Shown one piece after another: positions 24,526-41,508 of a stretch of 64,000 bases of DNA (its first letter is position 1; the number at the start of each line of letters is the position of its first letter). The DNA lies in assembly GCF_000373745.1 (NCBI RefSeq), contig NZ_KB892357.1, positions 1 to 64,000 on the forward strand, written 5' to 3'. This DNA is from Oligella ureolytica DSM 18253. Lineage in GTDB: Bacteria > Pseudomonadota > Gammaproteobacteria > Burkholderiales > Burkholderiaceae_B. The position numbers were made by a program, and so were the translations under genes. The notes beneath the pieces were generated by a model. It saw only the letters and a program-made list of their open reading frames with translations, had not been told where the DNA came from and did no database searches.

Positions 24526-24550
24526 TTAATGTTCAGTTATTGAGGTTTTG

Positions 24551-26650: not shown

Positions 26651-26666
26651 GCATTAGCAAAAAACC

Positions 26667-26703
26667 AAAACCACTTTCAAAGACAGTATTTGAAAGTGGT
26701 TTT
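26667..26703 (+). terminator. Strong intrinsic terminator after the TonB-dependent receptor
   Basis: AAAACCACTTTCAAA (26667-26681) pairs perfectly over 15 bases with 26689-26703 around a seven-base loop, followed by TCTTTATTTTTC. The next gene starts only 26 bases later, so transcription into it depends on readthrough. Confidence 0.8.
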
Positions 26704-26729
26704 CTCTTTATTTTTCAAAAACACATTAT

Positions 26730-28469
26730 ATGCAACGATTCTTTTATCCCTTCTTCCGACTAATGCGTTTATGCACGCATAGTAAAGCCGGAGCCATTGG
26801 GATTGCTCAATTTATTTTTGTCTTGTTACTGAGTTTAGTGGGGCTTGCCATCTCGCTTCGCATGATTCGCTGGAGTAATGACTTTTATAATGCACTTCAA
26901 GAAATTAATGGTGAAGAAATTATTCATCAAATCGGTATTTTTGTGCTCTTAGTGCTCGCTAGCGCCACACTACACCTAGTCGGTAAATACGTACAAAACT
27001 TATTAGAAATACGTTGGCGAAAGCTATTAACTACTGCGGTCGTAAACCGTTGGTTAACTGACCATCAACATTGGTACCTCAAACTTGATAGCAATTCAGA
27101 AAACATTGATAACCCGGAGCAACGTATTGCCGAGGACTGTCGCATCTTTATCCATCTGACCGTGACCCAAGTACACGCGTTAATTATGGCTATCATCTCC
27201 GTGGTATCCTACTTTGCTGTTCTATGGTCATTATCTACCTTTGCACTATCCTTTACGGTGCTTGGTTATGCTGTTGAAATCCCACGCTACATGGTATGGG
27301 CGGCTCCTCTCTACGTCTTGATATCCAGTGGTGTAACTCACTATTTAGGTTCACCATTAAGAAACCTCACGGTCAAACAACAGCGCCGTGAAGGTGACTT
27401 TCGCTACGCCCTCACTCATGTCCGTGATTCGAGTGAGGCTATTGCACTACAGCGCGGTGAAAAGCAAGAACATAAGCACCTAGCTAATTTATTTAAAGCC
27501 ATTGAAGAAAACTGGCGTCAATTAAACATTCGTAATCTTATCTTAGGCTGCTTTACCCGCCCTTACTATCAGACGGTACTGCGTATTCCCATGTTTTTAG
27601 CGTTACCTGCCTTCATCGTCGGTAAAGTCACTTTAGGTGGTCTGATGCAGTTAGCCAGCGCATTTACTAATGTGGTCACTACCCTCTCATGGTTTATTTT
27701 CTCTTATCGAGATTTGGCAGAATTGGCCGCATCGACACGCCGTCTTGATCAATTACTCAAACAGCTTGATAACAATTTATCCGAAGGCTCGGACTACACA
27801 CTGCAGGCTGATAATCATCTATCAATCAGGAGCGTGCAATTATATACACCAACTAAAAAACCTTTACTATTCGTCGAGTCTCTTGATATTCATCCAGGCG
27901 AACGTGTATGGTTACAGGGAAATTCGGGTATAGGCAAAAGTACCTTACTTAAATCTATTGCGGGTATCTGGCCTTTTACCAAGGGCGAGATACACTCTCC
28001 ACAGCAAAAAGACAGTCTTTATTTACCACAAACTCCCTATATTCCTAAACAGGGTATTTTGGCCGCCTTATGCTATCCCTTAGCTAAAGAAGAATTAAGC
28101 CATGAAAAGGCTGAAAAACTACTAATGGCTGTTGGCTTGGAGCACTTGATTGATAAGTTGCCACTTCCTCAGGAAGAGCAACAATCCATATTAAGCGCTT
28201 TATCTGGTGGTGAACGGCAGCGTTTAGCCTTGGCGCGAGCTATTTATTTAGCACCAAAATGGTTATTTTTGGATGAGGCAACAAGTGCATTAGATGCCAA
28301 TAGTGAGAGCAAAATTCTCCGTATCATTGCAGAGAAATTACCTGATAGTGCCATTATTTTACTCTCACACCATCAACCACAAGGTTTTGATTACTCTCGC
28401 CATATTGTCTTTGAAACTGATACTCAAAGCAATCCGGACAAGAATACAGAAAACCCAAGTTTTAGTTAA
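26730..28469 (+). CDS. Fused ABC transporter, SbmA/YddA type (permease plus ATPase)
   Basis: A 579-residue half-transporter. The N-terminal 330 residues form an SbmA/BacA-like membrane domain with about six spans, with typical segments MIRWSNDFYNALQ and WRKLLTTAVVNRWL near its start. The C-terminal ATPase has Walker A GNSGIGKSTLL near residue 396, signature LSGGERQRLALARA near 490 and Walker B WLFLDEATSALD. It is of the YddA kind; E. coli yddA also lies next to a TonB-receptor gene. Here it probably moves the receptor's ligand, possibly heme, across the inner membrane, though transport direction is unproven. No clear ribosome binding site precedes the ATG. Confidence 0.85.
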   Translation: MQRFFYPFFRLMRLCTHSKAGAIGIAQFIFVLLLSLVGLAISLRMIRWSNDFYNALQEINGEEIIHQIGIFVLLVLASATLHLVGKYVQNLLEIRWRKLLTTAVVNRWLTDHQHWYLKLDSNSENIDNPEQRIAEDCRIFIHLTVTQVHALIMAIISVVSYFAVLWSLSTFALSFTVLGYAVEIPRYMVWAAPLYVLISSGVTHYLGSPLRNLTVKQQRREGDFRYALTHVRDSSEAIALQRGEKQEHKHLANLFKAIEENWRQLNIRNLILGCFTRPYYQTVLRIPMFLALPAFIVGKVTLGGLMQLASAFTNVVTTLSWFIFSYRDLAELAASTRRLDQLLKQLDNNLSEGSDYTLQADNHLSIRSVQLYTPTKKPLLFVESLDIHPGERVWLQGNSGIGKSTLLKSIAGIWPFTKGEIHSPQQKDSLYLPQTPYIPKQGILAALCYPLAKEELSHEKAEKLLMAVGLEHLIDKLPLPQEEQQSILSALSGGERQRLALARAIYLAPKWLFLDEATSALDANSESKILRIIAEKLPDSAIILLSHHQPQGFDYSRHIVFETDTQSNPDKNTENPSFS

Positions 28470-28489
28470 TTTTTAAAGAAGGAATAGTG

Positions 28490-28975
28490 ATGTCTGAACA
28501 AGATAATTTAGTACCACAATTGCAGCAATTGCTGCGTACTAAGCGCAGTGCCTCTCTTGCCACACTGACCAACCAAGGCGAACCTTTTGCCTCAATGGTG
28601 CCCTTTGCCATTGATAAAAAAACGGCCAATTTGGTCATTCATATCAGTGAATTTGCAGCCCATACACGCTACATACAACAGCGTCCGACTGCTTCATTGA
28701 TGATTTGCACCAGTGAAGAAGCGGACAAGCCTGTGCACGATCTCTCACGCGTGACTTTTGCAGTCAAGGCCACAGAACCTGAACGTGATAGTGAAGAATG
28801 GAGCTACTATCGTGATATTTATTTAGAACGCTTTCCTGATGTAGAGTTTATGACCCACTTCAAAGATTTCCATTTCTTTGTCTTGGAAATTACTCGCGTC
28901 AGACAAGTCGCAGGATTTGGGGCAGCCAAAACGCTCAATGTTGATGACGTTAAAGAATTGATTCAGAAGCTGTAA
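28490..28975 (+). CDS. HutZ/HugZ-like heme-utilisation protein (pyridoxamine-phosphate-oxidase fold)
   Basis: A 161-residue split-barrel protein. The N-terminal RSASLATLTNQGEPFASMVPFAID is typical of the family, and the segment RVRQVAGFGAAKTL near residue 140 is the HugZ/HutZ C-terminal signature. Such proteins bind heme and take part in its breakdown or handling. AAGGAATA precedes the ATG at 28490. It ends the receptor-ABC-HutZ cluster and is followed by a terminator. The length suits the short HutZ type rather than long HugZ. Confidence 0.85.
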   Translation: MSEQDNLVPQLQQLLRTKRSASLATLTNQGEPFASMVPFAIDKKTANLVIHISEFAAHTRYIQQRPTASLMICTSEEADKPVHDLSRVTFAVKATEPERDSEEWSYYRDIYLERFPDVEFMTHFKDFHFFVLEITRVRQVAGFGAAKTLNVDDVKELIQKL

Positions 28976-29080: not shown

Positions 29081-30181
29081 CTAAAAACGATGGCGGATAC
29101 CAACACTGACTAACCTCGATTTCAACCCATCTTGAAAGAATGCATTTTTAGCATAAGAGGCGTAGGTATATAAATTTGTGCGTTTCGACAGTTTATAGCT
29201 ATAACCTAGGGCGAAAACATTTTGTTTTTCCAACTCATCACCCACTAAGTAGACGGATTTGCTACTAATCGCCGCTCTTCTTGGATCGGCCATCCGCCAA
29301 GCAGCACCGATTTGCCCATTACCCATTGGAATAGCTAGACCTACATGATATGAATTCAAGTCAAAGCCTTCAGCCGCTACGAAGCTACCAGTCTTTAAAT
29401 CACCCACGTTGCCCCCGGCAAACCAACCGTCTTTGGTTTTACCAAAACCAAGAGACAAGGTCAGGGCATCAAAATCATAGGACATACCGGCAGCCCATGC
29501 TTGAAGCCTATGACTCATACCCTCTTTTTTTAGTCTAATCCTGTCATAGACAAGAAAAGCCTTGACTGCCCCTTGGTTATAACGCAAACCTGTAGTGATG
29601 GCCTTATCATCGGTACTACCTTCTTCACCATCAATGGTGGAAGAATAACCTATACCTCCTTGAAAACCAGAGATAGTTGGGCTTTGATACATAACCATAT
29701 TGTCATAACGCACAGAATCTAAAGAGCTGAATGCCATCCCAATTGATAATTGGTTATAACTGGAACCTAATGGATCCAGGATATTTTTCCCGTACTTATT
29801 GGAAATATTGGTCTGCCGTCCAAACTCTAAGCGCCCCCAGTCTTTATTGGACAGTCCCAGGGTACTCTGACGACCAAATAATCTACCACCTTGCTTACTT
29901 TCGCCAGTCAAAAGGTTAAACCCGCTTTCGAGTTGAGCAACTACAGTGGTTCCATTACCTATATCTTCTTCAATTTTTAAACCCCAACGACTGCCAGGTT
30001 GTCCGGCATCAATGGCGCCGGTTTTTGTATTTGAGTAATAACCTCCATGTAATGGCCCACTCACTTTTTCATAGGCGTAACCAGCAGTCACCGACCCGTA
30101 TAAAGTAACACTTGTGTCCGCCTGTGCCGTTGTAAAAGGTAGCACACACAAAGCTCCACATAAAACAAAATTTTTTCTCAT
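29081..30181 (-). CDS. Gram-negative porin, Burkholderiales type
   Basis: A 366-residue trimeric-porin-family protein. The signal peptide is MRKNFVLCGALCVLPFTTAQA, and the mature protein begins with the invariant SVTLYGSVTAGYAYE. It has the EDIGNGTTVVAQLESGFNLLTGESKQGGRLFGRQ stretch and ends in SVGIRHRF with the terminal Phe needed for barrel assembly. It differs clearly from the two porins at 57-60 kb. It lies just after the end of the phn operon in the same direction, 31 bases from phnL, without shared function evident. Confidence 0.93.
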   Translation of the reverse strand: MRKNFVLCGALCVLPFTTAQADTSVTLYGSVTAGYAYEKVSGPLHGGYYSNTKTGAIDAGQPGSRWGLKIEEDIGNGTTVVAQLESGFNLLTGESKQGGRLFGRQSTLGLSNKDWGRLEFGRQTNISNKYGKNILDPLGSSYNQLSIGMAFSSLDSVRYDNMVMYQSPTISGFQGGIGYSSTIDGEEGSTDDKAITTGLRYNQGAVKAFLVYDRIRLKKEGMSHRLQAWAAGMSYDFDALTLSLGFGKTKDGWFAGGNVGDLKTGSFVAAEGFDLNSYHVGLAIPMGNGQIGAAWRMADPRRAAISSKSVYLVGDELEKQNVFALGYSYKLSKRTNLYTYASYAKNAFFQDGLKSRLVSVGIRHRF

Positions 30182-30212: not shown

Positions 30213-30824
30213 CTAAAACAATTGAATCGACTGGTCAACCCAAGTTTCATGAGTGTGACTACTAAAGATCACTAGCTTCTGTCGGTCTTTTTCTTTTTTA
30301 AGAAGTCTAACAACCTGATGGAAGCGCTTAGGATCCAAGCCCGTACAGGGCTCATCAAGTAACAGGATTGGTGTCTCGGAAAAAACAGCTCGTAACAACA
30401 CAAATCGCTGCAATTCACCACCCGATAAATCGGTGGCACAGCGTTGTAAGAGCTCCGGCGCCAAGTCGAGATAAAACAGTCTTTCATGGAGTTCATCTAT
30501 AGAGTAATCAGTGAACCAGTCAGACATTCTGCTTCGCGGCAACACCAGGGGGTTTTGAGCTACATAAGTCATTAGTCTTGGCCGTACAAAAGCAAGTTGA
30601 GCTGGCGACATCTTGCCCAGGTCAAGACTTTGTCCATTGTCAAAGTTAATAATCAGACTACCCTTGCCAATACTTCGGCTGCCCCAAATCCGTGCCAATA
30701 AAGTCGATTTACCAACACCCGAAGGTCCCCACAGGTGCACTAGCTGCCCGCTGTCAGCTCTAATTTCTAACGGTATGGAAGCGGTTTCACTTTGAAAGAA
30801 AAGTTGAAGAGTCTTAGTGTTCAT
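30213..30824 (-). CDS. phnL: PhnL, ABC-type ATPase of the carbon-phosphorus lyase system
   Basis: A 203-residue ABC ATPase. Walker A is GPSGVGKSTLL near residue 33, the signature is LSGGELQRFVLLRA near 133 and Walker B is TPILLLDEPCTGLD. PhnL is required for the C-P lyase pathway and binds the PhnGHIJK complex as a dimer after PhnK. It is about 20 residues shorter than E. coli PhnL. The start overlaps the phnK stop by one base. Last gene of the operon. Confidence 0.9.
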   Translation of the reverse strand: MNTKTLQLFFQSETASIPLEIRADSGQLVHLWGPSGVGKSTLLARIWGSRSIGKGSLIINFDNGQSLDLGKMSPAQLAFVRPRLMTYVAQNPLVLPRSRMSDWFTDYSIDELHERLFYLDLAPELLQRCATDLSGGELQRFVLLRAVFSETPILLLDEPCTGLDPKRFHQVVRLLKKEKDRQKLVIFSSHTHETWVDQSIQLF

Positions 30825-31588
30825 TAGATCATCGCTTTAACTAGCGCCTCGGCGGTAGGATGCTCGGGTTCCGTTAGCATGCGGTCAATGACGGCTTGGC
30901 TTACCACCTTACCCTTATCCATCACCAATACACGATCGGCAATCAACCGTACAAGACGTAAATCGTGGGTAACAAACACCATAGAAAGATTCCGCTCGGT
31001 TTTAAGGTCTAATAAACAATCAATAAACTCTGCTTGAGACACTGAATCTAAGGCTGAAGTCGGTTCATCCAAAAACAGTATTTCAGGTTCATGCACTATG
31101 GCTGCGGCAATCTGAACACGCTGTCTCATCCCGCCGGAATAGGTTGCTACCGAATCATCTAACCTTTCCAACGGTAGCCCCAAACGCTCACTCAAAGCTT
31201 TTGCGCGAGACAATGCATCACTCGCACTATTAAGACCAAGATCAAATAAGCGCTGCGCTATGTTAGCGGCTGCTGAGAGTTTCAAATTTAGTGTTTTGTC
31301 GGCATCTTGCGCGACATAGCCCATTAATTGTCTACGTAGTTGATAAATCCTGTGCGTATCCGTCCTTTGTATATCATGCTCTTTGAGCTTAAATAGATGA
31401 CACTCACTTGGACTATCCTTACCAACCAGGATATTTAACAAGCTTGATTTACCAGCGCCCGAAGGCCCTACTATCGCTAATACTTCTGAGGGGTAAAGTT
31501 GCAAATCACATGCGCTAAGGATTTGACGATCAGACTTGACTAAACTCACCTGCTGAATATCAAGCACTGGTGGTGGCAACTTAAACAT
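30824..31588 (-). CDS. phnK: PhnK, ABC-type ATPase of the carbon-phosphorus lyase complex
   Basis: A 254-residue ABC ATPase that docks on PhnJ in the C-P lyase core complex. Walker A is GPSGAGKSSLLN near residue 39, the signature is YSGGMRQRVQIAAAI near 156 and Walker B is EILFLDEPTSALD. I start at ATG 31588, which overlaps the phnJ stop by eight bases and gives the family length; an open frame reaches 31738 but lies inside phnJ. Confidence 0.93.
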   Translation of the reverse strand: MFKLPPPVLDIQQVSLVKSDRQILSACDLQLYPSEVLAIVGPSGAGKSSLLNILVGKDSPSECHLFKLKEHDIQRTDTHRIYQLRRQLMGYVAQDADKTLNLKLSAAANIAQRLFDLGLNSASDALSRAKALSERLGLPLERLDDSVATYSGGMRQRVQIAAAIVHEPEILFLDEPTSALDSVSQAEFIDCLLDLKTERNLSMVFVTHDLRLVRLIADRVLVMDKGKVVSQAVIDRMLTEPEHPTAEALVKAMI

Positions 31589-32393
31589 TGGCACGACTCC
31601 AACAAGCTTCAGAATCTGAACAAACCCAATCAGGCTTCTCACCGGTACCAATATTGTCCAGATAATGGGTACTCGTTCCGCAAACCTTGCACATGCCCGA
31701 AACCTTAGGTGGAATGCAACTAACATCGCTAAACGCAATACTTTCTACCTGTGTGTACGCCGGTAAAGCGTAAATCCTACGTTCACGTGCCGCACCAAAG
31801 ACCTGAATCGCCGGCATCTGGTTCATGCGCGCATTATCCATGACAGGTATAGGTGAAGGTGACATTAATGCGCCCCCCTCAATCAAGACCGGATGATCGT
31901 ATCCAAGACTACCCTCTCCTTGCTTTAACCAACGCTCAAATAAAGAGGTCAAAATCAAACCATAATCATGATGCGCATGCCGCATTCGCGACTCCTTGGC
32001 ATTATTAATAAAACCACGCAGGGGATCAGGACGTGGCACCTGATAAACTAATACCTGCCCTTCTTTGAGAGGTGTCTCAGGAATACGCTGACGAGTTTGA
32101 ATCAAGGTCGCCTCAGCAGTCGATTCAGTGGCCACAACATTAGCTGTTTTAAGAAAAAAATCACGAATATTCAACGCATTAACAGTATCGTCTGAACCAT
32201 GGTCAACCACTTTAAGCTTATCCTTTGGGTGTAATAGCGATGCCGTCACCGCTATACCCCCTACGCCCCAACCATAGGCAATAGGTAATTCAGGTATGAC
32301 AAAGGGAATTTGTCGCCCGGGCAAGCACAGGGCTTTGATAATTTTTCGGCGCACTTCGCGCTTGGACAACTGATCAAGGTAAGCGTAATTCAT
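31581..32393 (-). CDS. phnJ: PhnJ, radical-SAM carbon-phosphorus lyase
   Basis: The 270-residue catalytic subunit that cleaves the C-P bond of ribose-1-phosphonate 5-phosphate using an Fe-S cluster and S-adenosylmethionine. It begins YAYLDQLSKREVRRKIIKAL. The cluster Cys residues are near the C-terminus: GMCKVCGTSTHYL and WVCSDSEACW. These match the PhnJ-type (non-CX3CX2C) arrangement and are intact. It overlaps phnI by four bases (ATGA). Confidence 0.96.
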   Translation of the reverse strand: MNYAYLDQLSKREVRRKIIKALCLPGRQIPFVIPELPIAYGWGVGGIAVTASLLHPKDKLKVVDHGSDDTVNALNIRDFFLKTANVVATESTAEATLIQTRQRIPETPLKEGQVLVYQVPRPDPLRGFINNAKESRMRHAHHDYGLILTSLFERWLKQGEGSLGYDHPVLIEGGALMSPSPIPVMDNARMNQMPAIQVFGAARERRIYALPAYTQVESIAFSDVSCIPPKVSGMCKVCGTSTHYLDNIGTGEKPDWVCSDSEACWSRANV

Positions 32394-33421
32394 AGTTTTT
32401 TCTGAGCATGGACTCGACGTAATCTAGCGATGTCCGCATCAAAGTCCGAATAATGTGGTAATTTCAAATGACTAACGTAGCCCGAAGAAGCGACGCCATC
32501 GACATGCATCAGCACATCCGCAGAAAGGTTTTGATCGCTTTTCACCGCTAGGTCTACAACACCCATGGCGACCGCTTTACGTTCATTGGCACCAAAAGCA
32601 ATCCCAAAGCCTTCGAGCAATTGGGCTTCTTGCCCAAAGTCCGGCATCAGGGTAGTACACGCAGTTAAATCAATCTCACCCACTGAAACCGTCAAGCCAA
32701 GTTCTTCTACTGCCACCATCACCTCAATAGCACCGGCGCTAAGCTCGGCCACATAAGGATGGGTTGAAGATGCCCGACGTAAACTCTCATATGCTAAACC
32801 AGTCAAATAACCTTCTTCACCACGCACCAGAGTTGCCAATCTCTCACTGCTTCCAACTTCAAGCGCAGTCACTTTACGGGTAATATCAACCGGCTCTTGC
32901 GGCGCTTCTCGTCTAATTAAATCCTCATAATGAGTGGTTTGTGTAGAGTTTTTATCGACGGCGACTGCCGGTGATTCAGACACACTCTCTGATGACTCTG
33001 CGTTGGGCTGTGATGAATTAGCTAAACTAAAATCAAGCAGTCGATGAGTATAGTCATAGGTTGCACCAAGGATCTGACCACCAACCAATTCTTTTTGAGT
33101 CGCTGAAATATGGCGTGTTCGCTTTAAATGATTCAAATCCAGCATTTCCGCCGCACCAAAATCAACCAACTGCGCACGATGAGCTCGTAACAGAAAAACC
33201 GCTTCGGCCATGTCACCTTGAGACTGTTTTAAGGCAATTGCCGCTAAACGCCGGTCATAAAGCCCGCCTTCAGTCATAACTCGATCAACAGCTAAAGCCA
33301 TTTGCTCAATAATTTGTTCTATAGCTATTTCATCTAGGCCTAAATCACCGCGTCTCGCTTTGTCCACAGCAGCTCGAGAAGCCGCTATTGCTTCAGCCCC
33401 ACCTTTTACCGGCACATACAT
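32390..33421 (-). CDS. phnI: PhnI, C-P lyase core subunit
   Basis: A 343-residue subunit; with PhnG, H and L it catalyses attachment of alkylphosphonate to ribose triphosphate, and alone it has nucleosidase activity. It begins MYVPVKGGAEAIAASRAAVD, the family N-terminus. The segments VYxx-type SRAAVDKARRGD and QIIEQMALAVDRVMTEGGLY follow. The start overlaps the phnH stop by one base. Length is close to E. coli PhnI. Confidence 0.95.
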   Translation of the reverse strand: MYVPVKGGAEAIAASRAAVDKARRGDLGLDEIAIEQIIEQMALAVDRVMTEGGLYDRRLAAIALKQSQGDMAEAVFLLRAHRAQLVDFGAAEMLDLNHLKRTRHISATQKELVGGQILGATYDYTHRLLDFSLANSSQPNAESSESVSESPAVAVDKNSTQTTHYEDLIRREAPQEPVDITRKVTALEVGSSERLATLVRGEEGYLTGLAYESLRRASSTHPYVAELSAGAIEVMVAVEELGLTVSVGEIDLTACTTLMPDFGQEAQLLEGFGIAFGANERKAVAMGVVDLAVKSDQNLSADVLMHVDGVASSGYVSHLKLPHYSDFDADIARLRRVHAQKKL

Positions 33422-33978
33422 TAGAGCAACTCCAAACGCAGATGACGGGGTATAGCTACCATTTTCTTACCCGCGCAAAGCAATAAATCTATCCCACACG
33501 GATAAGAATCATGTAAAGCAATATGGTCAGTAATAACCCCTTCATTTAAACCAGAAAAAAACATTCGTCGCGCAGCGGGCAAACCAGCTCCTGTTGCTTC
33601 GACACATAAAGAGCCGCTGGACTCTGAAATGGCATCAATTTCTATCACAACCATCGCACCATCTTCCGGCGCCTCACGGCTTCCAATGGGTATATCAGTT
33701 AAATCAACAAGTGTTGATGTCGCAAAAAACCATTCAGCTTGACTACTAATCGTCGCTCCGGTAGCCAGTACCTCATGCTCTAGTTTTAAGCTGTCATTGC
33801 TTAATACAGCACCTGTTGTACTATCCAAGAAGCAAGCAATAACCCCATAAACAACATCAATATCTAATTCATAAACGCGCATAGGATAACCAAAAGCCTG
33901 CAAAAAACGACGGTAGCGCTGTGTATTTTGATGCAGAATTTGAGGACTATCAATTTCTGTATTTAAAGGAATCTTCAT
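33421..33978 (-). CDS. phnH: PhnH, C-P lyase core subunit
   Basis: A 185-residue subunit of the PhnGHIJ core. Typical features are QRYRRFLQAFGYPMRVYEL near residue 20, DIPIGSREAPEDGAMVVIEI near 96 and ATGAGLPAARRMFFSGL near 127. It lies five bases after phnG and overlaps phnI by one base. Confidence 0.93.
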   Translation of the reverse strand: MKIPLNTEIDSPQILHQNTQRYRRFLQAFGYPMRVYELDIDVVYGVIACFLDSTTGAVLSNDSLKLEHEVLATGATISSQAEWFFATSTLVDLTDIPIGSREAPEDGAMVVIEIDAISESSGSLCVEATGAGLPAARRMFFSGLNEGVITDHIALHDSYPCGIDLLLCAGKKMVAIPRHLRLELL

Positions 33979-33983
33979 TTAAA

Positions 33984-34433
33984 TCACGATGTTTTAGTAG
34001 TAAAAAATTGCACTGAGGTGGATGACACCAACATTTCTCGCTCAACGTTTATTTGAGCAAGACGCTCTCGAATCGGCACTAATATGATGTGCCTCTGTTC
34101 ATCACCCAGCTCCTGGAATAAGGCATCAAGGTAAGCCGCTAATTCAGCTTTGCGAAGATTTGAACCCAGCTGTACTGCATAACCTCGAACCTTACCCAGT
34201 TGAATTACACAACGACTGCAAGTTGCTTCACCAAACTGAAAAGCGACGGCACCACCACCTGCACGAGTAGTCAACTGCAATAAGCCGGTTTCCGGTCCAG
34301 ATATGATCTGCGGTTGTTTATTTTTACCCAAATCAGCCCATAGGCTCTCAAGGTACTCACACTCCGCTCTAGCTAACAAAGCAAGCCATTCTGCCCGTTG
34401 TGGATTGCTTGCCTGGCTGTTCAGCTCCTTCAT
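33984..34433 (-). CDS. phnG: PhnG, C-P lyase core subunit
   Basis: A 149-residue subunit of the PhnGHIJ core complex. RAEWLALLARAECEYLESLW near the start and GATCSRCVIQLGKVRGYAVQLGSNLRKAELAAYLDAL near residue 70-105 fit the family. The start overlaps the stop of the upstream ABC ATPase gene by four bases (ATGA), placing the C-P lyase genes in the same transcript as the importer. Confidence 0.93.
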   Translation of the reverse strand: MKELNSQASNPQRAEWLALLARAECEYLESLWADLGKNKQPQIISGPETGLLQLTTRAGGGAVAFQFGEATCSRCVIQLGKVRGYAVQLGSNLRKAELAAYLDALFQELGDEQRHIILVPIRERLAQINVEREMLVSSTSVQFFTTKTS

Positions 34434-35254
34434 TGTTGCCCCTTGGCATATCTACAATCAACACCCAAGTTCAAATTGTCATAGCTTTGATTTAATCCAA
34501 AGATTGGGCACACAGTACTTTGTCGATACTCGCCTTCTTGCATCTGCAAACGACGCAAGCGGATTTTATATAGCCGTGATAATTCGGCCTCGCTTAATAA
34601 TTTATCCGCTGCACCAAAGCGTATTTCATCCTTTTCATGCATCAACAGCACCTTATCGGCTAGATAAAGGGCGTGTTGCGGATTATGGGTAGTAAAAATA
34701 ACTGTATGACTGCGCTCAGAGCGCAACTCATACAAAACGCTCAGTAGCAAGTCCTGATTAGCAAGATCCAGGGCTGCGGCAGGTTCATCTAAAATCAACA
34801 GATCAGCTCCGGTTGCTAGCGCTCTTGCTAATAACACCAACTGACGCTCACCTCCAGACAATGAACCAAAACGTTGATTAGCCAAGTGACTTGCACCTAC
34901 TCGCTCCAAGGCATCAAACGCTCTTTCCTGATCTCGGCGAGTCGGTAGAGAAAACATTGGAAGCAATGCAGCGCGCGCCATTAAAACCACATCTAAACTG
35001 CGATGCTCTTCACTGCCATGTTGATGCTGTGGCACATAACCGATTAAACGCGGTATTTTCCGTCGACCGCGAGTTAGCGTCTGAGTACCGATTAATGATT
35101 TTAGCAAGGTAGTTTTGCCACGGCCATTAGGCCCTAAGATAACCATCGTCTCGCCTTTAGTAAGATGGAAACTGAGATTGTCAAATACTACGCGAGAACC
35201 AAAACGCACTTCAGCTTGCTCTACGCTAACATGAGCAGTTTTTAATTCATTCAT
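34430..35254 (-). CDS. Iron-siderophore/cobalamin-type ABC transporter ATPase (FecE/BtuD-like)
   Basis: A 274-residue ATPase of the FecCDE group. Walker A is GPNGRGKTTLLKS near residue 39, the signature is SLSGGERQLVLLARALA near 130 and Walker B is LLILDEPAAALD. The C-terminus carries an extra tail of about 40 residues after LLSEAELSRLYKI. I use ATG 35254 with AAGGGG six bases upstream. It overlaps the permease stop by one base and phnG by four. Confidence 0.9.
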   Translation of the reverse strand: MNELKTAHVSVEQAEVRFGSRVVFDNLSFHLTKGETMVILGPNGRGKTTLLKSLIGTQTLTRGRRKIPRLIGYVPQHQHGSEEHRSLDVVLMARAALLPMFSLPTRRDQERAFDALERVGASHLANQRFGSLSGGERQLVLLARALATGADLLILDEPAAALDLANQDLLLSVLYELRSERSHTVIFTTHNPQHALYLADKVLLMHEKDEIRFGAADKLLSEAELSRLYKIRLRRLQMQEGEYRQSTVCPIFGLNQSYDNLNLGVDCRYAKGQQ

Positions 35255-36312
35255 CACCAGCCCCTTCTTTTGCGGGTGCAGAGTAAATATACAAAAACGG
35301 GAGCACCAATTAAGGCTGTCAATACTCCCAAAGGTATTTCTGCTGCCACTAAACTACGCGCTAAAGTATCAATAAAAATCATAAAAGTAGCCCCTAAAAT
35401 AATGGTGGTCGGGTATAACTTAAATTGATCTTCTCCTACTAAGAGTCGAGCCATATGAGGAATCACCAACCCTACCCAGCCAACTACACCAGACGCAGTG
35501 ACGCAGGTACCAATGACCAAAGAAACCAGGCCAAACACCATCAATCGCGATTGCTTAACCTTGATGCCAAAGGCCTGAGCCTCGTCATCACCCATGGCCA
35601 ATACTGCAATACGAAAACGCATTTGGTTAAGCAGAAAAATACCGACTATTAATGGAATAGACGTTAGTGCGACTTTGTTCCAACTGGCAGTGGCAAAGCT
35701 ACCCATCAACCAAAAAACAATGGCTGGTAAACTATCCTCAGGATCTGCTACGAATTGAACCAAGGACACCCCTGCAGCAAATAAAGCATCAATTACTATC
35801 CCTGCCAACACAATGGTCATCAATGTTCGACCAGCAACATTTGAGATGAACACCACCAAAAATAATGCGCCGAAAGCAGTAATAAAAGTCGCCCCCATCA
35901 ACATAGGCCCACTTATACCGATCAGGATAGCTAAGGTACCGCCCAGTGCTGAACCGGATGAAAGCCCCAAGACCTTGGGAGAAACCAAGGGGTTACGAAA
36001 CAGTGTCTGCAGCGCCACCCCACTAATCGCCAAGCCGGCACCAGTAATACCTGCTAAAAGAATTCGCGGTAAGCGCACATTTAGTACCACCAATTCTTGA
36101 ATGCTGCCGCTACCCAACCCTAAAACTCCACGGTATAAAATTGAAAAGACCTCGGGGTATGAGATGTTATAACGGCCTGCAACTAAGCCAACAAAAGCAG
36201 CAAGCAGTAAAAGCATCACTAGCACAGGCCAGTAAACATATCGAAAAGAGCTAAAATCCACTCGCGATTTTTGTTGATTGTCCGTATTCACTAAAGTTTG
36301 GCTATTACTCAT
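35254..36312 (-). CDS. Iron-siderophore/cobalamin-type ABC transporter permease (FecCD family)
   Basis: A 352-residue inner-membrane protein with about ten hydrophobic segments. The FecCD family landmarks are RLPRILLAGITGAGLAISGVALQ near residue 80, NPLVSPKVLGLSSGSALGG near 108 and VGLVIPHMARLLVG near 280. It should import a metal chelate or corrinoid. It overlaps the binding-protein gene by four bases. Confidence 0.93.
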   Translation of the reverse strand: MSNSQTLVNTDNQQKSRVDFSSFRYVYWPVLVMLLLLAAFVGLVAGRYNISYPEVFSILYRGVLGLGSGSIQELVVLNVRLPRILLAGITGAGLAISGVALQTLFRNPLVSPKVLGLSSGSALGGTLAILIGISGPMLMGATFITAFGALFLVVFISNVAGRTLMTIVLAGIVIDALFAAGVSLVQFVADPEDSLPAIVFWLMGSFATASWNKVALTSIPLIVGIFLLNQMRFRIAVLAMGDDEAQAFGIKVKQSRLMVFGLVSLVIGTCVTASGVVGWVGLVIPHMARLLVGEDQFKLYPTTIILGATFMIFIDTLARSLVAAEIPLGVLTALIGAPVFVYLLCTRKRRGW

Positions 36313-37403
36313 TTCTTACTAAAGACCTGATAGCCTCTAGCCTCACCATTCATCTCAACCCGTAAAATCTGATCGATTTCGGCTTCCGATAACGCGTAGT
36401 TATATAAAAGCTGAAAACGCTCGGGCAATTCTGCACGTAAGTCAAACTGGAAAATTTCAGGATGAGTCAAGTTAGCTAACCACATCCATGTAAATGGGCT
36501 CTCATGCGAGGCACTATCCCAGATATAACCACCCACCGGCGTTTTATAAACACGCTTTTCTTTGGCTGCAGTTAATTGTGAAAACAATGGATGGTCGTAA
36601 ATAACTTCAAGCCCAGCATCAATTTCTTCAGAGGAGAGCATGATAATATCGGGATCCCATTCTAAAATTTGCTCAATACTGACTACTTTTTCTACACCAA
36701 CGCCATCGGCTACATTAACGGCACCGACCAACTCAATAAAGGTCTGCTGCCAGCTTTTTTCACCAGTTGCCCGTAAACGTGATTTAGCAGAACGCAAATG
36801 CAAAATACTTGGCTTGTCTTTTATATCAGCTGCCGCTAGTGCCGAAGTAATCTCGTTAATAACCTCGTCACGCCACTCAATCAAGCGATTATATTTTTCA
36901 GTTTGTCCCGTGATTTCGGCCGCCATGCGCATATTTTCTCGTGCTAACTCTTCTGTTCCGTTATTGCCACCACCGACCATAAGTGCAACCGGAATACCAG
37001 CATTACGTAAGGGCGCAATTAAATCGTCTCCACGACCACCCCACTGAATCACCAAATCCGGTTCTAATGCAGCTATCCCTTCAACATTGGGCATCCAACC
37101 ACCACTTTCAGCAACTACATCACTACTGATATCGAGTGCTTCAGGAAACATGACGCTCATCATCCCGTTATTAAAGGCTCGTTTGGAACCTTGATTCATA
37201 CCCACAATACGTTTGGAAGAACCTTCGATAGCGATAAACGTCGGAGCGGCAGGATTAGGTAAAGTAACAATACGCTCAGGCTGTGCTTTCAAAACAATTT
37301 TTTGACCAGTCACATCGGTAAATGTAAATTCCTCTGCTAAAGGGCTAGCCGATAAACAAAACAGCATGGCGAAACTGGCAACACACTTCTTTTTCAAATT
37401 CAT
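36309..37403 (-). CDS. Periplasmic substrate-binding protein, siderophore/cobalamin type (Peripla_BP_2)
   Basis: A 364-residue protein with a signal peptide (MNLKKKCVASFAMLFCLSASPLAEE). It has the class III binding-protein pattern: VTDVTGQKIVLKAQPERIVTLP-like start, ALEPDLVIQWGG near residue 110, and ILEWDPDIIMLSS near 235. The family binds ferric siderophores, heme or cobalamin. The ATG at 37403 gives a proper signal peptide. First gene of the nine-gene operon and directly behind a Fur-like box. The ligand is unknown; the fused C-P lyase genes hint that it carries a phosphonate. Confidence 0.9.
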   Translation of the reverse strand: MNLKKKCVASFAMLFCLSASPLAEEFTFTDVTGQKIVLKAQPERIVTLPNPAAPTFIAIEGSSKRIVGMNQGSKRAFNNGMMSVMFPEALDISSDVVAESGGWMPNVEGIAALEPDLVIQWGGRGDDLIAPLRNAGIPVALMVGGGNNGTEELARENMRMAAEITGQTEKYNRLIEWRDEVINEITSALAAADIKDKPSILHLRSAKSRLRATGEKSWQQTFIELVGAVNVADGVGVEKVVSIEQILEWDPDIIMLSSEEIDAGLEVIYDHPLFSQLTAAKEKRVYKTPVGGYIWDSASHESPFTWMWLANLTHPEIFQFDLRAELPERFQLLYNYALSEAEIDQILRVEMNGEARGYQVFSKK

Positions 37404-37425: not shown

Positions 37426-37452
37426 TAAGAATGATTATGATAATTAGTATCA
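37426..37452 (-). promoter_or_regulatory. Fur-box-like site upstream of the importer/C-P lyase operon
   Basis: The stretch starting GAATGATTATGATAATTAG contains overlapping matches to the Fur hexamer array (GATTAT, GATAAT), 23 bases before the binding-protein start. It suggests iron repression of the whole nine-gene operon. Confidence 0.55.
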
Positions 37453-37522: not shown

Positions 37523-37691
37523 TTGACGGTACGTGAAGTAATCTCGAACAAATTAGCCTCTGTTTCCATCCGTGACCTGCTTTTGGTTGAGGCGGTTGCC
37601 AAGCATAATAGCTTCCGACTTGCTGCTACAGCGATGGATATCTCGACCTCTGGTCTTTCCCATCAAATCCGTAAAGTCGAGGAAATTCTAG
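37523..37691 (+). pseudogene. LysR-family regulator, 5' fragment interrupted by an IS5-family element
   Basis: The frame starts at TTG 37523 (GGGAG ten bases upstream) and reads the LysR helix-turn-helix: SIRDLLLVEAVAKHNSFRLA followed by ATAMDISTSGLSHQIRKVEE. It is cut after VEEIL by the IS. The 3' half resumes exactly in frame past the element (38867), giving a 302-residue LysR protein when rejoined. It lies divergent to the importer/C-P lyase operon, the normal place for its regulator. Confidence 0.85.
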
Positions 37692-38862
37692 GGAACCTCT
37701 GAATAACTCCCCACTTTTTGCGATAATAGCCGCATCGACCATTTTTTAGCCCAGCGAGCCGAATCATGAGCCAGTTGACCTTTGCCGAAGCAGAATACCA
37801 GAACAAAAAGCGTAAGACGCGTCGTGAGATTTTCTTGGAAAGAATGGATGCCATTATTCCTTGGAAGCGCTTGGAGAATCGCGCCGCTAAGCATTACCCA
37901 AAAGGTGAAATGGGGCGTCCCCCTTATCCGCTCAGTGTGATGCTGCGTGTGCATTGCTTGCAACTATTCTACAACCTCAGCGATCCAGCTCTGGAAGATT
38001 CGCTGTATGAAATTGAATCAATGCGCCGCTTTGCAGGATTGCGTTTGTCAGACAATATTCCTGATGAAACAACGATTTTAAACTTCCGTCACTTCCTTGA
38101 AAAGCATGGGCTGGGCAAGCTATTTCTGAAGGAAATTAACAAGCACTTGCAGCATCAAGGCTTGCTGTTTCGCGAAGGCACCATTGTGGATGCCAGCATT
38201 ATTTCCGCACCGAGCTCAACGAAAAATCAAAGCCGCAAGCGCGACCCAGAAATGCACTCCAGCAAGAAAGGCAACCAATGGCACTTTGGCATGAAGATGC
38301 ATATCGGCGTGGATGATGTCACAGGTATGATTCATAGTGTGGAAAGTACGGCTGCCAATGTGCACGACGTAACCATGACGGCAAGCTTACTGCATGGCGA
38401 AGAAAAACGCGTATTTGGTGATGCTGGATACCTAGGTGTTGAAAAACGTAAAGAAAACAAAGAGCGCAAAAATCTTGCTTGGTTGATCAGTGCTCGAATC
38501 AGTAAACGTAAAACCATGACCGAAAATGAGCAGGAAATTGAAAAAATGAAAGCCAAGCTACGCGCTAAAGTTGAGCATCCGTTTCGCTACATCAAGTGCG
38601 TATTTGGCTATAACAAAGTTCGTTACAAAGGGCTTGATAAAAACCATAACCGTTTGTGTCTGCTGGCGGGGCTAACGAACCTCATGATCGGCAGAAAACA
38701 CTTGCTAGCTTAGGGTTAGTGCGCCCTTAATCCGCCAAAACGGCGAATTAAGGGCTAAAAGAGGTGATTTTACCTTGAAAGCGATCTTTTTTAGCTGTTT
38801 TTTTGAGTTTTCGAGTCGTTTTCAGAAAAGCTCAAGAATAAGCTGAGATTTTCAGAGGCTCC
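37692..38862 (+). mobile_element. IS5-family insertion sequence, complete, in a lysR gene
   Basis: The element is 1171 bases, with terminal inverted repeats GGAACCTCTGAA (left) and TTCAGAGGCTCC (right), matching at eleven of twelve bases. It is flanked by the 4-base target duplication CTAG (37688-37691 and 38863-38866), which fits the IS5 target consensus YTAR. Removing the element and one CTAG rejoins the LysR frame exactly. It carries one transposase gene. Confidence 0.93.
37766..38713 (+). CDS. IS5-family DDE transposase
   Basis: A 315-residue transposase. The N-terminal DUF772-type region reads LENRAAKHYPKGEMGRPPYP, and the DDE residues are in GTIVDASII (first Asp), VFGDAGYLG (second Asp) and KVEHPFRYIKCVFGYNKVRY (Glu). 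The length is complete and there is no frameshift, so the element may be active. Confidence 0.95.
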   Translation: MSQLTFAEAEYQNKKRKTRREIFLERMDAIIPWKRLENRAAKHYPKGEMGRPPYPLSVMLRVHCLQLFYNLSDPALEDSLYEIESMRRFAGLRLSDNIPDETTILNFRHFLEKHGLGKLFLKEINKHLQHQGLLFREGTIVDASIISAPSSTKNQSRKRDPEMHSSKKGNQWHFGMKMHIGVDDVTGMIHSVESTAANVHDVTMTASLLHGEEKRVFGDAGYLGVEKRKENKERKNLAWLISARISKRKTMTENEQEIEKMKAKLRAKVEHPFRYIKCVFGYNKVRYKGLDKNHNRLCLLAGLTNLMIGRKHLLA

Positions 38863-39606
38863 CTAGGTCAGGCAATCTTTGAACGTGGCAATAGGGTTTC
38901 CCCAACCACTTACGGCAATACAGTATTAGATGTTATTGCTTCTGTTTTAGCCAGTATTACGCAGCTTGAAAATCTACGTAATGACAGCCCTATTCCCTTC
39001 GGACCAACCTTGCGTGTTGGGGTGATTTCATCGCTCTCTCCTAATGATTTGCTGCATATCATAGAGAAGTGCCAACAAGACTCAAATCAAACCAAGGTTG
39101 AGGTTGTTAGCGGTAAGCACCACGGTCTTTTACGTCGCCTACAGGAACGAGAGATTGATTTTCTTATTACTGCTTCAACGGAGGTGCCGGACGGCTTTTC
39201 CCATGCCGAGTTATTTCATGAGTCTTTTGTTCTGCTCTGCCGCTCTGATTTAGAAAAACCGCTATTGGATCCCGTCACCCCATCCGCCCTCAGTTTGTTA
39301 CCATTGAGTGAGGACGACTTTATACCCGAGATAATCACTCGAGGTTTAGAACCTATGCTGAACTCGGCCTTGACCCGAAGTTATGGTCTTAGCATCAGCC
39401 ATCGGCTAGCGCTGGTATTAGCAGGTTATGGTTTTGCTCTCATGCCTAAAAGGTGGGTCGAGAGCATACCACTACCGAACAATATCTCTATTATTCAATT
39501 GCCCCAAGCATTATCCGAAGAAAGAACCATCACTTGCATTTGGCGAGAGTCATTTACGATAGGGGCAAAAATTGTTAAAACACTAAACGCTGACTTAGCC
39601 AATTAG
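38863..39606 (+). pseudogene. LysR-family regulator, 3' fragment (effector-binding domain)
   Basis: The frame continues from the IS junction with GQAIFERGNRVSPTTYGNTV, the end of the LysR DNA-binding domain, then an effector domain starting near GPTLRVGVISSLSPNDL and ending in ALSEERTITCIWRESF and a short helix. An internal ATG-like start (GTG region near 39010) could in principle express the effector domain alone, but without the helix-turn-helix it would not bind DNA. The fragment keeps normal coding character, so the insertion is recent. Confidence 0.85.
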
Positions 39607-39624
39607 AAATAAAAAATAATTTGT

Positions 39625-39657
39625 TTGACTTCGTACGATATTTTCGTACGAAGTCAA
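39625..39657. repeat. Perfect 14-bp inverted repeat after lysR
   Basis: TTGACTTCGTACGA (39625-39638) pairs exactly with TCGTACGAAGTCAA (39644-39657) around TATTT. It lies between the lysR stop and the promoter at 39671, so it could be the lysR terminator, an operator for the next genes, or both. Confidence 0.7.
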
Positions 39658-39670
39658 CGAAAATACCATT

Positions 39671-39735: not shown

Positions 39736-39770
39736 GTGTTTTTAACAATCGTATGAATAAGGATCAACAC

Positions 39771-40286
39771 ATGTCAACACTGACCGTTTCTGAAAATGAC
39801 AACTTAATGACTTTCACCTATGATGATTTTATCAAATACCATGGCTACAAATCGCCATGCGGTCTATCACAAGCGTTTAAGGTACTTGAACTTGCTTTGC
39901 CACTATTAGAAGATGGTAAACCAGTCGAGCGTCGTGAGCTACAAATTACGACAGCATTTCCAGGTCCAGGCGCCAGAGACGCCTTCGAAATGCTCGCACG
40001 CGCCGTAACTAGCGGTCGTTACAAGATAGACACCTCACTCGGTGGTGACGATGTGACCGAGGGTCCAACTGGTAAATACTATTTCCGCCTTGAGTATCGC
40101 GGCAAAGTCGTCGAGACACGCATTAAACCAGAGCACATTCGTGACGATTATATTGCCTTAGCCAGAAAGCCAAAACGCAATGATGAAGAAAACGAGTTAC
40201 TCGCAGAACTTCGACTTGAATTGGCCGATAGAATCCTGCCACTAAGCTCTGACGAACTATTTGAAGTGGTTCTAGTTGAAGCTTAA
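39771..40286 (+). CDS. Unrecognised FmdE-like protein, tandem paralog 1
   Basis: A 171-residue soluble protein. It shares with the next two genes the segments FIKYHGYKSPCGLSQAFKVL, ERRELQITTAFPGPGARDAFEM, LARAVTSGRYKID, YYFRLEYRGKVV and a C-terminal LADRILPLSSDELFEVV. The HG-x4-P-x-G-x3-AF pattern with a Cys in this copy recalls the HGHxCPGxA motif of FmdE-family metal-binding proteins, but this is a pattern reading, not a search. It is the most divergent of the three. ATG 39771 has AAGGA seven bases upstream and brings the length in line with its paralogs. No signal peptide, so cytoplasmic. Confidence 0.8.
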   Translation: MSTLTVSENDNLMTFTYDDFIKYHGYKSPCGLSQAFKVLELALPLLEDGKPVERRELQITTAFPGPGARDAFEMLARAVTSGRYKIDTSLGGDDVTEGPTGKYYFRLEYRGKVVETRIKPEHIRDDYIALARKPKRNDEENELLAELRLELADRILPLSSDELFEVVLVEA

Positions 40287-40393: not shown

Positions 40394-40903
40394 ATGAACA
40401 CAGCTGAAATAACTGTCAAAGAAAACGGTCAACTTTTTACCTACCGTCACAAAGATCTAACTAACTACCACGGTACCGGTTTTCCTGGCGGTGTTGCTCA
40501 TGCTTTTCAGGTACTGCGACGCGCAATCCCTTTGCTGGATAATGGTAATCCACCAGAGCGTCGCGAAATTGAAATTCACACTGCCTTTCAAGGACCCGGT
40601 GGCCGAGATGGTATAGAAATGGTCACTCGCGCCACCACCGATGGCCGGTACCACATCGATCCAAACTTAGCTCGCACTGAAAGAGGTCCATTGTTAGCCA
40701 GATATTATTTTGTTTTTAACTATCGTGGTACAACAGTTAAACTACAAGTTAAAGAGGGCTTGGTACGAGAGGAGTTCGTTACGCTCGAACACAAAAAAGA
40801 TCGAACAGCAGAAGAAGACGCACGACTTGAAGTACTCAAAGTGGACATGTCAGATAGGCTACTCGGTGCTCCTTGCGAGGATATCTACGAGCTCGTTGAT
40901 TAA
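40394..40903 (+). CDS. Unrecognised FmdE-like protein, tandem paralog 2
   Basis: A 169-residue paralog with the same layout: DLTNYHGTGFPGGVAHAFQV, ERREIEIHTAFQGPGGRDGI, EMVTRATTDGRYHIDP, YYFVFNYRGTTVKLQV and MSDRLLGAPCEDIYELV. The Cys of copy 1 in the HG-x4-P motif is absent here, while a Cys appears near the C-terminus (GAPCEDIYE) as in copy 3. AGGAG lies nine bases before the ATG. Confidence 0.82.
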   Translation: MNTAEITVKENGQLFTYRHKDLTNYHGTGFPGGVAHAFQVLRRAIPLLDNGNPPERREIEIHTAFQGPGGRDGIEMVTRATTDGRYHIDPNLARTERGPLLARYYFVFNYRGTTVKLQVKEGLVREEFVTLEHKKDRTAEEDARLEVLKVDMSDRLLGAPCEDIYELVD

Positions 40904-40995: not shown

Positions 40996-41508
40996 ATGAA
41001 ATCAGCGACAATAATTGTTAAAGAAAATGGTCAACTTTTTAGCTACACCCACGAGGATTTACTCCGCTATCATGGTACTGTTCTTCTAAATGGTGTTGCC
41101 CATGCTTTTCAAGTCATGCGGCTGGCACTGCCTCTTCTAGATAACGGCAATCCACCGGAACGTCGTGAAATTGAAGTTCGCACACCATTTACTCCCGGAC
41201 GCGGAGCTCGCGATGCAATAGAAATGGTGACCCGTGCTGTCACCGATAATCGATATCACATTGACCCCAGTTTGCGTCGAAGCGGACGCGGTCCGCGAGT
41301 AGAACTGTATTATTTTGAGTTTTCCTATCGTGGCAAGACAGTAAAATTACAAGTCAAAGACGGTTTACTTCTACCGGAATTTATTGCGATCGTAGATAAG
41401 GAAAATAAAACGCCAGAAGAAAAAGCTCGCATAGTTGAACTCAGAGCAGAGATGGCAGCAAAATTGCTTAGCTTACCTTGCGACGAAGTCTACGAAGTAG
41501 TCAATTGA
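40996..41508 (+). CDS. Unrecognised FmdE-like protein, tandem paralog 3
   Basis: A 170-residue paralog closest to copy 2: DLLRYHGTVLLNGVAHAFQV, ERREIEVRTPFTPGRGARDA, EMVTRAVTDNRYHIDPSL, YYFEFSYRGKTVKLQVKDG and AKLLSLPCDEVYEVV. The Pro-Gly of the HG-x4-PG motif is replaced here (HGTVLLNG), while ARDAIEMVTRAV is kept, so the central segment may be the functional core. AGGA precedes the ATG by ten bases. Confidence 0.82.
   Translation: MKSATIIVKENGQLFSYTHEDLLRYHGTVLLNGVAHAFQVMRLALPLLDNGNPPERREIEVRTPFTPGRGARDAIEMVTRAVTDNRYHIDPSLRRSGRGPRVELYYFEFSYRGKTVKLQVKDGLLLPEFIAIVDKENKTPEEKARIVELRAEMAAKLLSLPCDEVYEVVN

Follow-up and report, generated by a model that had tools for sequence, protein, structure and literature searches.

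A C-P lyase-like gene set coupled to a siderophore-type importer in Oligella ureolytica: a candidate iron-acquisition system

Carbon-phosphorus (C-P) lyase is regarded as a phosphorus-scavenging pathway. Within a 64 kb sequence from Oligella ureolytica DSM 18253 (the window, i.e. the whole stretch of DNA analysed), genes for a C-P lyase core, phnGHIJKL, share one operon with a siderophore-type importer (positions 30213-37403). What does such an importer supply to a C-P lyase, and is the benefit phosphorus or iron? An earlier note, made from the letters of the sequence, proposed that the operon may import a phosphonate-containing metal chelate, or an iron-phosphonate complex, and degrade it, with iron as the signal. 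Comparison with related loci suggests that some bacteria dismantle a phosphonate-type chelate for iron rather than phosphorus. We propose an iron-starvation uptake-and-dismantle system, in which an iron chelate is imported and taken apart and iron is the purpose; we put the chances of this proposal at about even.

Gene content of the operon

The nine minus-strand genes listed in the earlier note, encoding a substrate-binding protein (SBP), a FecCD-type permease and an ATPase followed by PhnG, H, I, J, K and L, are all present according to Pfam and NCBIfam profile matches (Table 1). Their tight coupling was also read correctly: junctions overlap by 4, 4, 4, 1, 4, 8 and 1 bases, with one 5-base gap. 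The phnK start is placed at 31588, within the end of phnJ; the TTG start given by the open reading frame finder is not adopted. The importer belongs to the siderophore/metal class, with a PF01032 permease and a Peripla_BP_2 SBP. A porin gene downstream, a divergent LysR gene interrupted by an IS5-family element and three FmdE-like genes (Table 1) add to what the earlier note listed.

PhnG, PhnH, PhnI and PhnJ of the window are over the cut-offs of their Pfam families. PhnH is below its NCBIfam cut-off (77 vs. 91.5); PhnI and PhnJ have strong Pfam matches and no NCBIfam match. PhnK and PhnL score under the NCBIfam cut-offs, the nominal best match of PhnK being NikE. A fully canonical C-P lyase operon is ruled out, as PhnM, PhnN, PhnP and PhnCDE are missing from the stretches searched and PhnJ residues are changed.

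Recurrence of the cassette

Recurrence in other genomes, on which the earlier note had staked its reading, is found. When 84,980 species genomes are scanned with a cassette PhnI alignment, 77 phnI-bearing loci emerge; 18 of these carry a FecCD-type importer and phnG onward (the cassette). They contain an FmdE-like gene plus phnGHIJKL, preceded by the importer to the extent that the contig covers it; because of contig ends, stretch L052 holds only the importer ATPase and L045 only part of the SBP. Among the hosts are Halomonas, Psychrobacter, Vibrio, Advenella, Rappaport, Stutzerimonas, Rhizobium, Agrobacterium, Martelella, Metarhizobium, Peteryoungia and Nitratireductor. The same order and partners are seen in alpha-, beta- and gammaproteobacteria, and on this ground chance linkage is rejected.

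Neighbourhood searches of the 18 cassette stretches find no phnM, phnN, phnP, phnF or DUF1045 gene and no phnCDE set, apart from one distant phnE match (38%) in Stutzerimonas; a phnO query gives no kept match in these stretches. The stretches reach at most 10 kb either side of phnI, and L041, L043, L044, L045 and L052 are among those cut by contig ends, so the absence of phnM beside the cassette holds only within that range. Such an importer is absent from the remaining 59 loci, of which 57 give clear matches to phnM, phnN, phnF, phnCDE or DUF1045. The two exceptions are a 4 kb contig (L104) and a locus with a weak phnC match only (L107).

A separate enzyme clade with altered phosphate contacts

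In FastTree trees, which cover the Phn proteins of the cassette other than PhnH, cassette PhnJ, PhnI and PhnG are each monophyletic (support 1.0, 1.0 and 0.99), on a long separate branch. Cassette PhnK is monophyletic with support of 0.76; PhnL is not quite so (25 tips for 24). These trees bear on the alternative raised in the earlier note, namely simple capture of an iron importer next to an iron-dependent enzyme, the two being merely co-transcribed. In favour of it, importer modules of the same family do exist without phn genes. Simple capture beside PhnJ is unlikely because cassette PhnJ, PhnI and PhnG form clades of their own and, in the loci seen, always accompany this importer (18/18). 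Given also that order and partners are shared across three classes and that the enzyme clade is specific to the cassette, mere linkage is very improbable.

Residues were compared between 24 cassettes and 77 canonical PhnJ sequences; eight of the 24 are near-identical Klebsiella-type records, and the tree can be read as holding about eight independent lineages. The canonical set comes from the same phnI pattern scan, together with 18 family relatives, E. coli and Acidovorax; two of 103 loci were dropped for want of a PhnJ at 70% coverage. Five PhnJ substitutions (R40P, T50V, Q71H, H108Q and Y158F) occur in 24/24 cassettes and in 0/77 canonical sequences, and both T50 and H108 are present in 77/77 of the latter. 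The cysteines at 241, 244, 266 and 272, Gly32, the ribose contacts R107 and Q124, and PhnI residues His219, His328 and His333 are kept in 24/24 cassettes.

According to a 2023 cryo-electron microscopy study, PhnJ loop 47-50 lies at the 5'-phosphate of the bound ligand, His108 adjoins its 1,2-cyclic phosphate next to Zn, loop 37-49 lines the pocket, and Y158A abolishes growth on phosphonate (PMC9947105). With T50 and H108 changed and R107 and Q124 the same, phosphate contacts are altered and ribose contacts retained.

PhnM trims the 5'-triphosphate ahead of PhnJ action. PhnM thereby makes the usual 5'-monophosphate intermediate, and its absence would be in keeping with a core that has ceased to bind this compound. 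Whether the cassette enzyme follows the standard C-P lyase reaction is in doubt: two positions that contact phosphate are altered, and the cassette lacks PhnM. One tentative possibility is that cassette PhnGHIJKL acts as a radical S-adenosylmethionine (radical-SAM) chelate-dismantling enzyme; ATP-derived ribosyl-triphosphate would be coupled to the imported iron chelator, which would be cleaved without PhnM to release iron rather than phosphorus. If so, C-P lyase chemistry would for the first time be part of a pathway for iron acquisition.

A more doubtful explanation is that the core has been repurposed and does not cleave phosphonates, carrying out ribosyl-triphosphate transfer to, or radical cleavage of, a different metal-binding ligand. 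The long branch, the lack of PhnM in the cassette and the fixation of T50V, H108Q, R40P and Q71H would all be expected of such a core; retention of the Fe-S cysteines, Gly32, the PhnI Zn histidines, R107 and Q124, as well as the Walker motifs of PhnK and PhnL in the window, would not.

Compared with the canonical E. coli system (phnCDE-FGHIJKLMNOP), the cassette shares homologues of PhnG to PhnL, the Fe-S cysteines, Gly32 and the Zn histidines. It differs in lacking PhnM, PhnN, PhnP, PhnCDE and PhnF within its stretches, in its importer class, in its phosphate contacts and in its iron-type operators (see below). Rhizobium sp. CG5 encodes a third, divergent PhnJ (L135, 16993-17907), which aligns without three of the four Fe-S cysteines. 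It lies in a phnF-GHIJKL cluster, with phnM just beyond, about 2.3 kb from an importer operon of the sister type described below.

Iron-type operators

The earlier note saw a Fur-like site before the SBP gene and suggested iron as the signal. This site is the best in the 64 kb window on both strands; the next best (15/19) lies at 3713. Read on the minus strand, it matches at 15/19, a score reached by 0.6% of shuffles (p 0.006). Nine of ten upstream regions of gamma- and betaproteobacterial copies score at least 13/19 to Fur; among random 90-bp windows of such loci, 2.1% reach 13/19 and 0.025% reach 15/19. All 12 scanned upstream regions of alphaproteobacterial copies (six distinct sequences) contain TGA-N9-TCA, beginning 31-43 bp before the estimated SBP start; 2.3% of 4500 random 90-bp windows of alphaproteobacterial loci contain it. 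PMC6386902 gives this motif as the RirA IRO box. Five of the ten gamma/beta rows also fit it (L037, L038, L039, L041 and the window). L021, L023, L025, L045 and L052, in which the region upstream of the SBP gene is missing, were left out of the scan.

At canonical phnG genes, 0/57 upstream regions have TGA-N9-TCA and 0/57 score at least 13/19 to Fur, although most of these controls have a higher G+C content and in some of them other genes precede phnG, both of which make a motif match less likely there. The Fur-like and IRO motifs overlap in form, and we take them for a single iron-type element that both branches have retained, suited to whichever regulator the host class has. The motif matches indicate that the cassette probably belongs to the Fur/RirA iron regulon and is switched on by iron shortage; iron is thus the likely signal, as proposed. 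The best Pho-box match upstream of the operon is 9/14, in a weak test in which the E. coli phnC control reaches only 10/14; the window holds six Pho-box matches against five expected, and the scan is too weak to discriminate.

Importer family and outer-membrane route

The AF2 (AlphaFold2) model of the SBP has a mean predicted local distance difference test (pLDDT) score of 77. Its fold neighbours are 4ovk (Z 33.2), MolA (27.3), YiuA (26.0) and H. pylori CeuE (22.9). Judged by this model, the nearest folds with known ligands are binders of metals, siderophores or molybdate, so a metal chelate or an oxyanion would be a fitting ligand. The likeness to the importers of MolA, YiuA and CeuE extends to the FecCD permease and the single ATPase; the cassette importer differs in its coupling to an FmdE-like protein and to machinery resembling C-P lyase.

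The presence of MolA and CeuE among these neighbours leaves room for import of another metal or an oxyanion (molybdate, tungstate or nickel), with C-P lyase acting on an oxyanion-like ligand, and FmdE takes its name from a molybdenum/tungsten enzyme operon. However, operators of the Fur and IRO types point to iron, and YiuA, whose structure contains iron and a fragment of a siderophore, resembles the SBP about as closely as MolA does. We consider this explanation quite improbable.

SBP homologues with 41-45% identity head sister operons in Rhizobium, A. vitis and Methylosinus. The order in these is SBP, FecCD, ATPase, a 436-aa protein of unassigned family (split in two in Methylosinus) and an FmdE-like protein. 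Their importer proteins are 42-54% and their FmdE-like proteins 51-61% identical to those of the cassette, and several have IRO boxes; they differ in having the unassigned protein in place of phn genes. Agrobacterium vitis has a cassette and a sister operon side by side. Nine related importer operons, which vary in kinship and include one (SL42 operon 1) taken without sequence comparison, comprise five with IRO boxes, one with a strong Fur site and three with neither. Since iron operators also occur on related operons that have the importer but no phn genes, it seems to be the importer to which iron control belongs. Two processing modules appear to be alternatives to each other, the C-P lyase clade being one of them.

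The one with the strong Fur site is a more distant operon on a Providencia plasmid (L030, 8998-13006); it includes cupin and methyltransferase genes, and its Fur-like site scores 16/19. Two permease genes, two ATPase genes and a TonB receptor gene are nearby.

The window's porin gene is probably the last gene of the operon, on the same transcript as phnL. Porin homologues occur beyond phnL in four other loci (L038, L041, L022 and L021), at full length in Advenella, in part in Vibrio and as remnants in Klebsiella and Proteus. In Stutzerimonas frequens (L036, 13286-15466), a TonB-receptor-like gene about 58 bp after phnL takes the porin's place. Neither porin nor TonB receptor is matched at the other 21 of 26 cassette loci. 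A TonB receptor as a constant part is therefore ruled out (1/26 other cassette loci). Porin linkage would favour a small substrate in some beta/gamma copies.

PhnM in host genomes and the phosphorus question

Nineteen cassette genomes were searched for the rest of the pathway; hosts other than that of the window are drafts or metagenome-assembled genomes of unstated completeness. PhnM is over its family cut-off in 13 and under it in six. Three of the six have no match (the window's genome, H. colorata and Rappaport israeli), and three have weak matches only, at no more than 28 bits against a cut-off of 390 (Halomonas JB37, Psychrobacter FME6 and Vibrio hibernica). In the same six genomes, the cassette PhnJ is the only PhnJ, while 12 of the other 13 have a second one (Fisher test of single PhnJ against PhnM, p 0.0003, treating genomes as independent, which they are not fully). 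Klebsiella-type hosts without PhnM share one cassette type and thus do not count as independent cases of the cassette. PhnN exceeds its cut-off in 12/19 hosts and PhnP in 3/19.

These counts bear on phosphorus scavenging, in which phosphonates would be imported as metal complexes and PhnM, PhnN and PhnP of the host would complete the normal pathway. The 13 hosts with PhnM, the 12 with a second PhnJ and an orphan phnP in the window's genome would accommodate it. It is at odds with the six hosts that have neither PhnM over the cut-off nor another PhnJ, with the number of hosts in which PhnN and PhnP exceed their cut-offs, and with iron-type operators lacking a recognisable Pho box in what is a weak Pho test. 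On this balance, phosphorus scavenging is unlikely.

Proposed mechanism

An uptake-and-dismantle system for iron might operate as follows. Low iron would lift the block by Fur (RirA in rhizobia). A small metal chelate would cross the outer membrane, perhaps via the linked porin or, in Stutzerimonas, the TonB receptor; the SBP would bind it, and FecCD and the ATPase would import it. In the cytoplasm, PhnGHIJKL of the separate clade would modify and cleave the chelator, most likely a phosphonate, and iron would be released. The FmdE-like protein may help, perhaps by holding metal or ligand. Phosphorus supply would not be the purpose of the system.

Several observations weigh against this. The normal pathway could be finished in the 13 hosts with PhnM, 12 of which have a second PhnJ. 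The orphan phnP of the window's genome (G000:C1:26096-26839; L119, 8085-8840) is over its family cut-off and adjoins a large gene labelled from its translation as carbamoyl-phosphate-synthase-like; it speaks for a remnant of the normal pathway. The nearest SBP folds include that of MolA, which binds molybdate, and the ligand could therefore involve another metal or an oxyanion. Operator evidence consists of motif matches rather than expression data, and Fur support is uneven: only four of ten gamma/beta rows (the window, Stutzerimonas and two Halomonas) beat their own shuffles at p <0.05, and the sites in Klebsiella, E. coli and Rappaport are weak. No natural phosphonate siderophore was found in the literature search.

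Of the reading in the earlier note, then, recurrence, a siderophore/metal importer and iron as the likely signal are supported; a phosphonate-metal chelate is a candidate ligand, and the standard C-P lyase reaction a possible one for the cassette enzyme. The separate clade, iron-type importer, iron operators matched to the host class, PhnM-less hosts and changed phosphate contacts argue for a metal-acquisition role; if this is true, part of the C-P lyase family moves into metal acquisition. It would also predict that phosphonate-type iron chelators, natural or man-made, occur where carriers live.

Relation to ProteoRUSTI and spread

The arrangement is already known in print. Bonham et al. (2017) named group 7 of horizontal gene transfer in cheese bacteria ProteoRUSTI; their account of it describes an island with Phn genes in Vibrio and Halomonas from cheese, and notes that uropathogenic E. 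coli has identical DNA and Oligella urethralis a similar sequence (PMC5526665). An ABC siderophore-type transporter and Phn genes on one island are common to ProteoRUSTI and the cassette, and L037 is the Halomonas sp. JB37 genome of that paper, with the gene order of the window apart from the FmdE-like gene. The window copy differs in having no FmdE-like gene inside the operon and three copies outside. PhnM loss, FmdE, active-site changes, operators and alphaproteobacterial copies are not discussed in the ProteoRUSTI passages of PMC5526665.

The literature search, mostly of titles and abstract openings, turned up no other paper using the name, and no experimental test of ProteoRUSTI or expression data for the cassette. 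Searches for C-P lyase with Fur or iron, for FmdE with FecCD and for incomplete C-P lyase operons found nothing that bears on the cassette. Relative to the literature searched, the apparent novelty lies in the separate clade with a changed active site, the PhnM-less hosts and the matched iron operators. Cheese is described as iron-limited (PMC5526665), and two hosts, Halomonas JB37 and Morganella, are documented cheese isolates; phosphonate is not mentioned in the part of a cheese iron review consulted (PMC12096840).

The cassette is mobile by horizontal transfer, as judged from DNA identity in the Klebsiella/Halomonas type. Copies of this type are 99.3-99.95% identical in ten records from nine genera (3.8 to 9.5 kb aligned), including plasmids of Klebsiella, E. 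coli, Proteus and Morganella. Identity above 99% across nine genera implies recent spread, and a benefit that can be tested. In E. coli, 3 of 5426 complete genomes hold at least 80% of the cassette, every one on a plasmid. In a tblastn search of plasmids, PhnJ and SBP queries share the same 18 top records; gene order was viewed in seven of these, three ending at the record end. Below them identity drops to 52% for PhnJ, which is canonical-type in one checked record, and to 45% for the SBP. Against the Klebsiella/Halomonas type, 5.4 of 8.7 kb of the window copy can be aligned, with a DNA identity of about 67%. Patchy distribution is the only sign of mobility for this copy, the SBP being found in one of eight species of the window's genus.

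When L037-L041 and L100 are compared with L022, most proteins are 99-100% identical; the SBP (96-99%) and the adjacent upstream operator vary most, as if ligand or regulation were under change. In Psychrobacter FME6 (L040), the ATPase and FmdE-like genes are partly duplicated in tandem. On the Klebsiella plasmid L022 (16300-20319), genes annotated for microcin B17 processing and export adjoin the cassette.

FmdE-like proteins and flanking genes

In other cassettes, a homologue of the window's three FmdE-fold genes sits between the ATPase gene and phnG. The 170-aa protein, on the strength of its AF2 model (mean pLDDT 91), has an FmdE fold: Z is 12.8, 10.4 and 10.3 against three FmdE-like structures, and the structure ranked next has 4.7. 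The match came from the fold search alone, a sequence search of the family against solved structures giving none. Four homologues taken from other genomes are below the PF02663 cut-off of 22.9, the best at 22.2 bits and the other three without a match. The family is rare, occurring in 4/398 genomes of the window's phylum (its own included) and in 8/385 genomes sampled from an alphaproteobacterial class. Around distant FmdE-like genes (L132, L133, L134, L136 and L137) there is no importer of the cassette type; in L133, a canonical phnG-M cluster lies about 2 kb from the FmdE-like gene.

Table 1. Features of the operon and adjacent DNA in the O. ureolytica window
Feature	Position	Strand	Evidence and remarks
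Trimeric porin	29081..30181	-	Porin_4 5.5e-44; 31 bp after phnL
phnL-like ATPase	30213..30824	-	TIGR02324 best match, below cut-off; Walker A and B present
phnK-like ATPase	30824..31588	-	TIGR02323 below cut-off; Walker A and B present
phnJ	31581..32393	-	PF06007 1.4e-97; four Cys and Gly32 kept; R40P, T50V, Q71H, H108Q, Y158F
phnI	32390..33421	-	PF05861 5.6e-102; Zn-site histidines kept
phnH, divergent	33421..33978	-	PF05845 4.1e-20
phnG	33984..34433	-	PF06754 2.6e-29; TIGR03293 above cut-off
Importer ATPase	34430..35257	-	PF00005 1.5e-26
FecCD-type permease	35254..36312	-	PF01032 9e-79
SBP, Peripla_BP_2	36309..37403	-	PF01497 3.5e-23
Fur-like operator upstream of SBP gene	37433..37451		16/19 to Fur consensus
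LysR-family gene, 5' part, divergent	37523..37691	+	matches N-terminus of cassette LysR
IS5-family element inside LysR gene	37692..38862	+	transposase NF033581 3.4e-99; CTAG flanking both ends
LysR-family gene, 3' part	38863..39606	+	tblastn with cassette LysR
FmdE-like gene, copy 1	39753..40286	+	model match 9.2e-60
FmdE-like gene, copy 2	40394..40903	+	model match 1.8e-62; AF2 pLDDT 91, Z 12.8 to FmdE-like 2glz
FmdE-like gene, copy 3	40996..41508	+	model match 1.7e-51

On the plus strand at 24548-28975, convergent with the cassette, the window encodes a TonB heme/hemoglobin receptor, an SbmA/BacA-like ABC protein and a HutZ/HugZ-like heme protein. We reject a heme-uptake component of the system, as these genes are convergent and have no kept match at the cassette loci searched.

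The LysR gene is split by the IS5 element; LysR control may therefore be lost in this isolate, with the Fur-like site kept. Between the LysR remnant and the FmdE-like genes, an inverted repeat at 39617-39665 (22-nt arms, 86% complementary, 5-nt spacer) is a possible operator or terminator.

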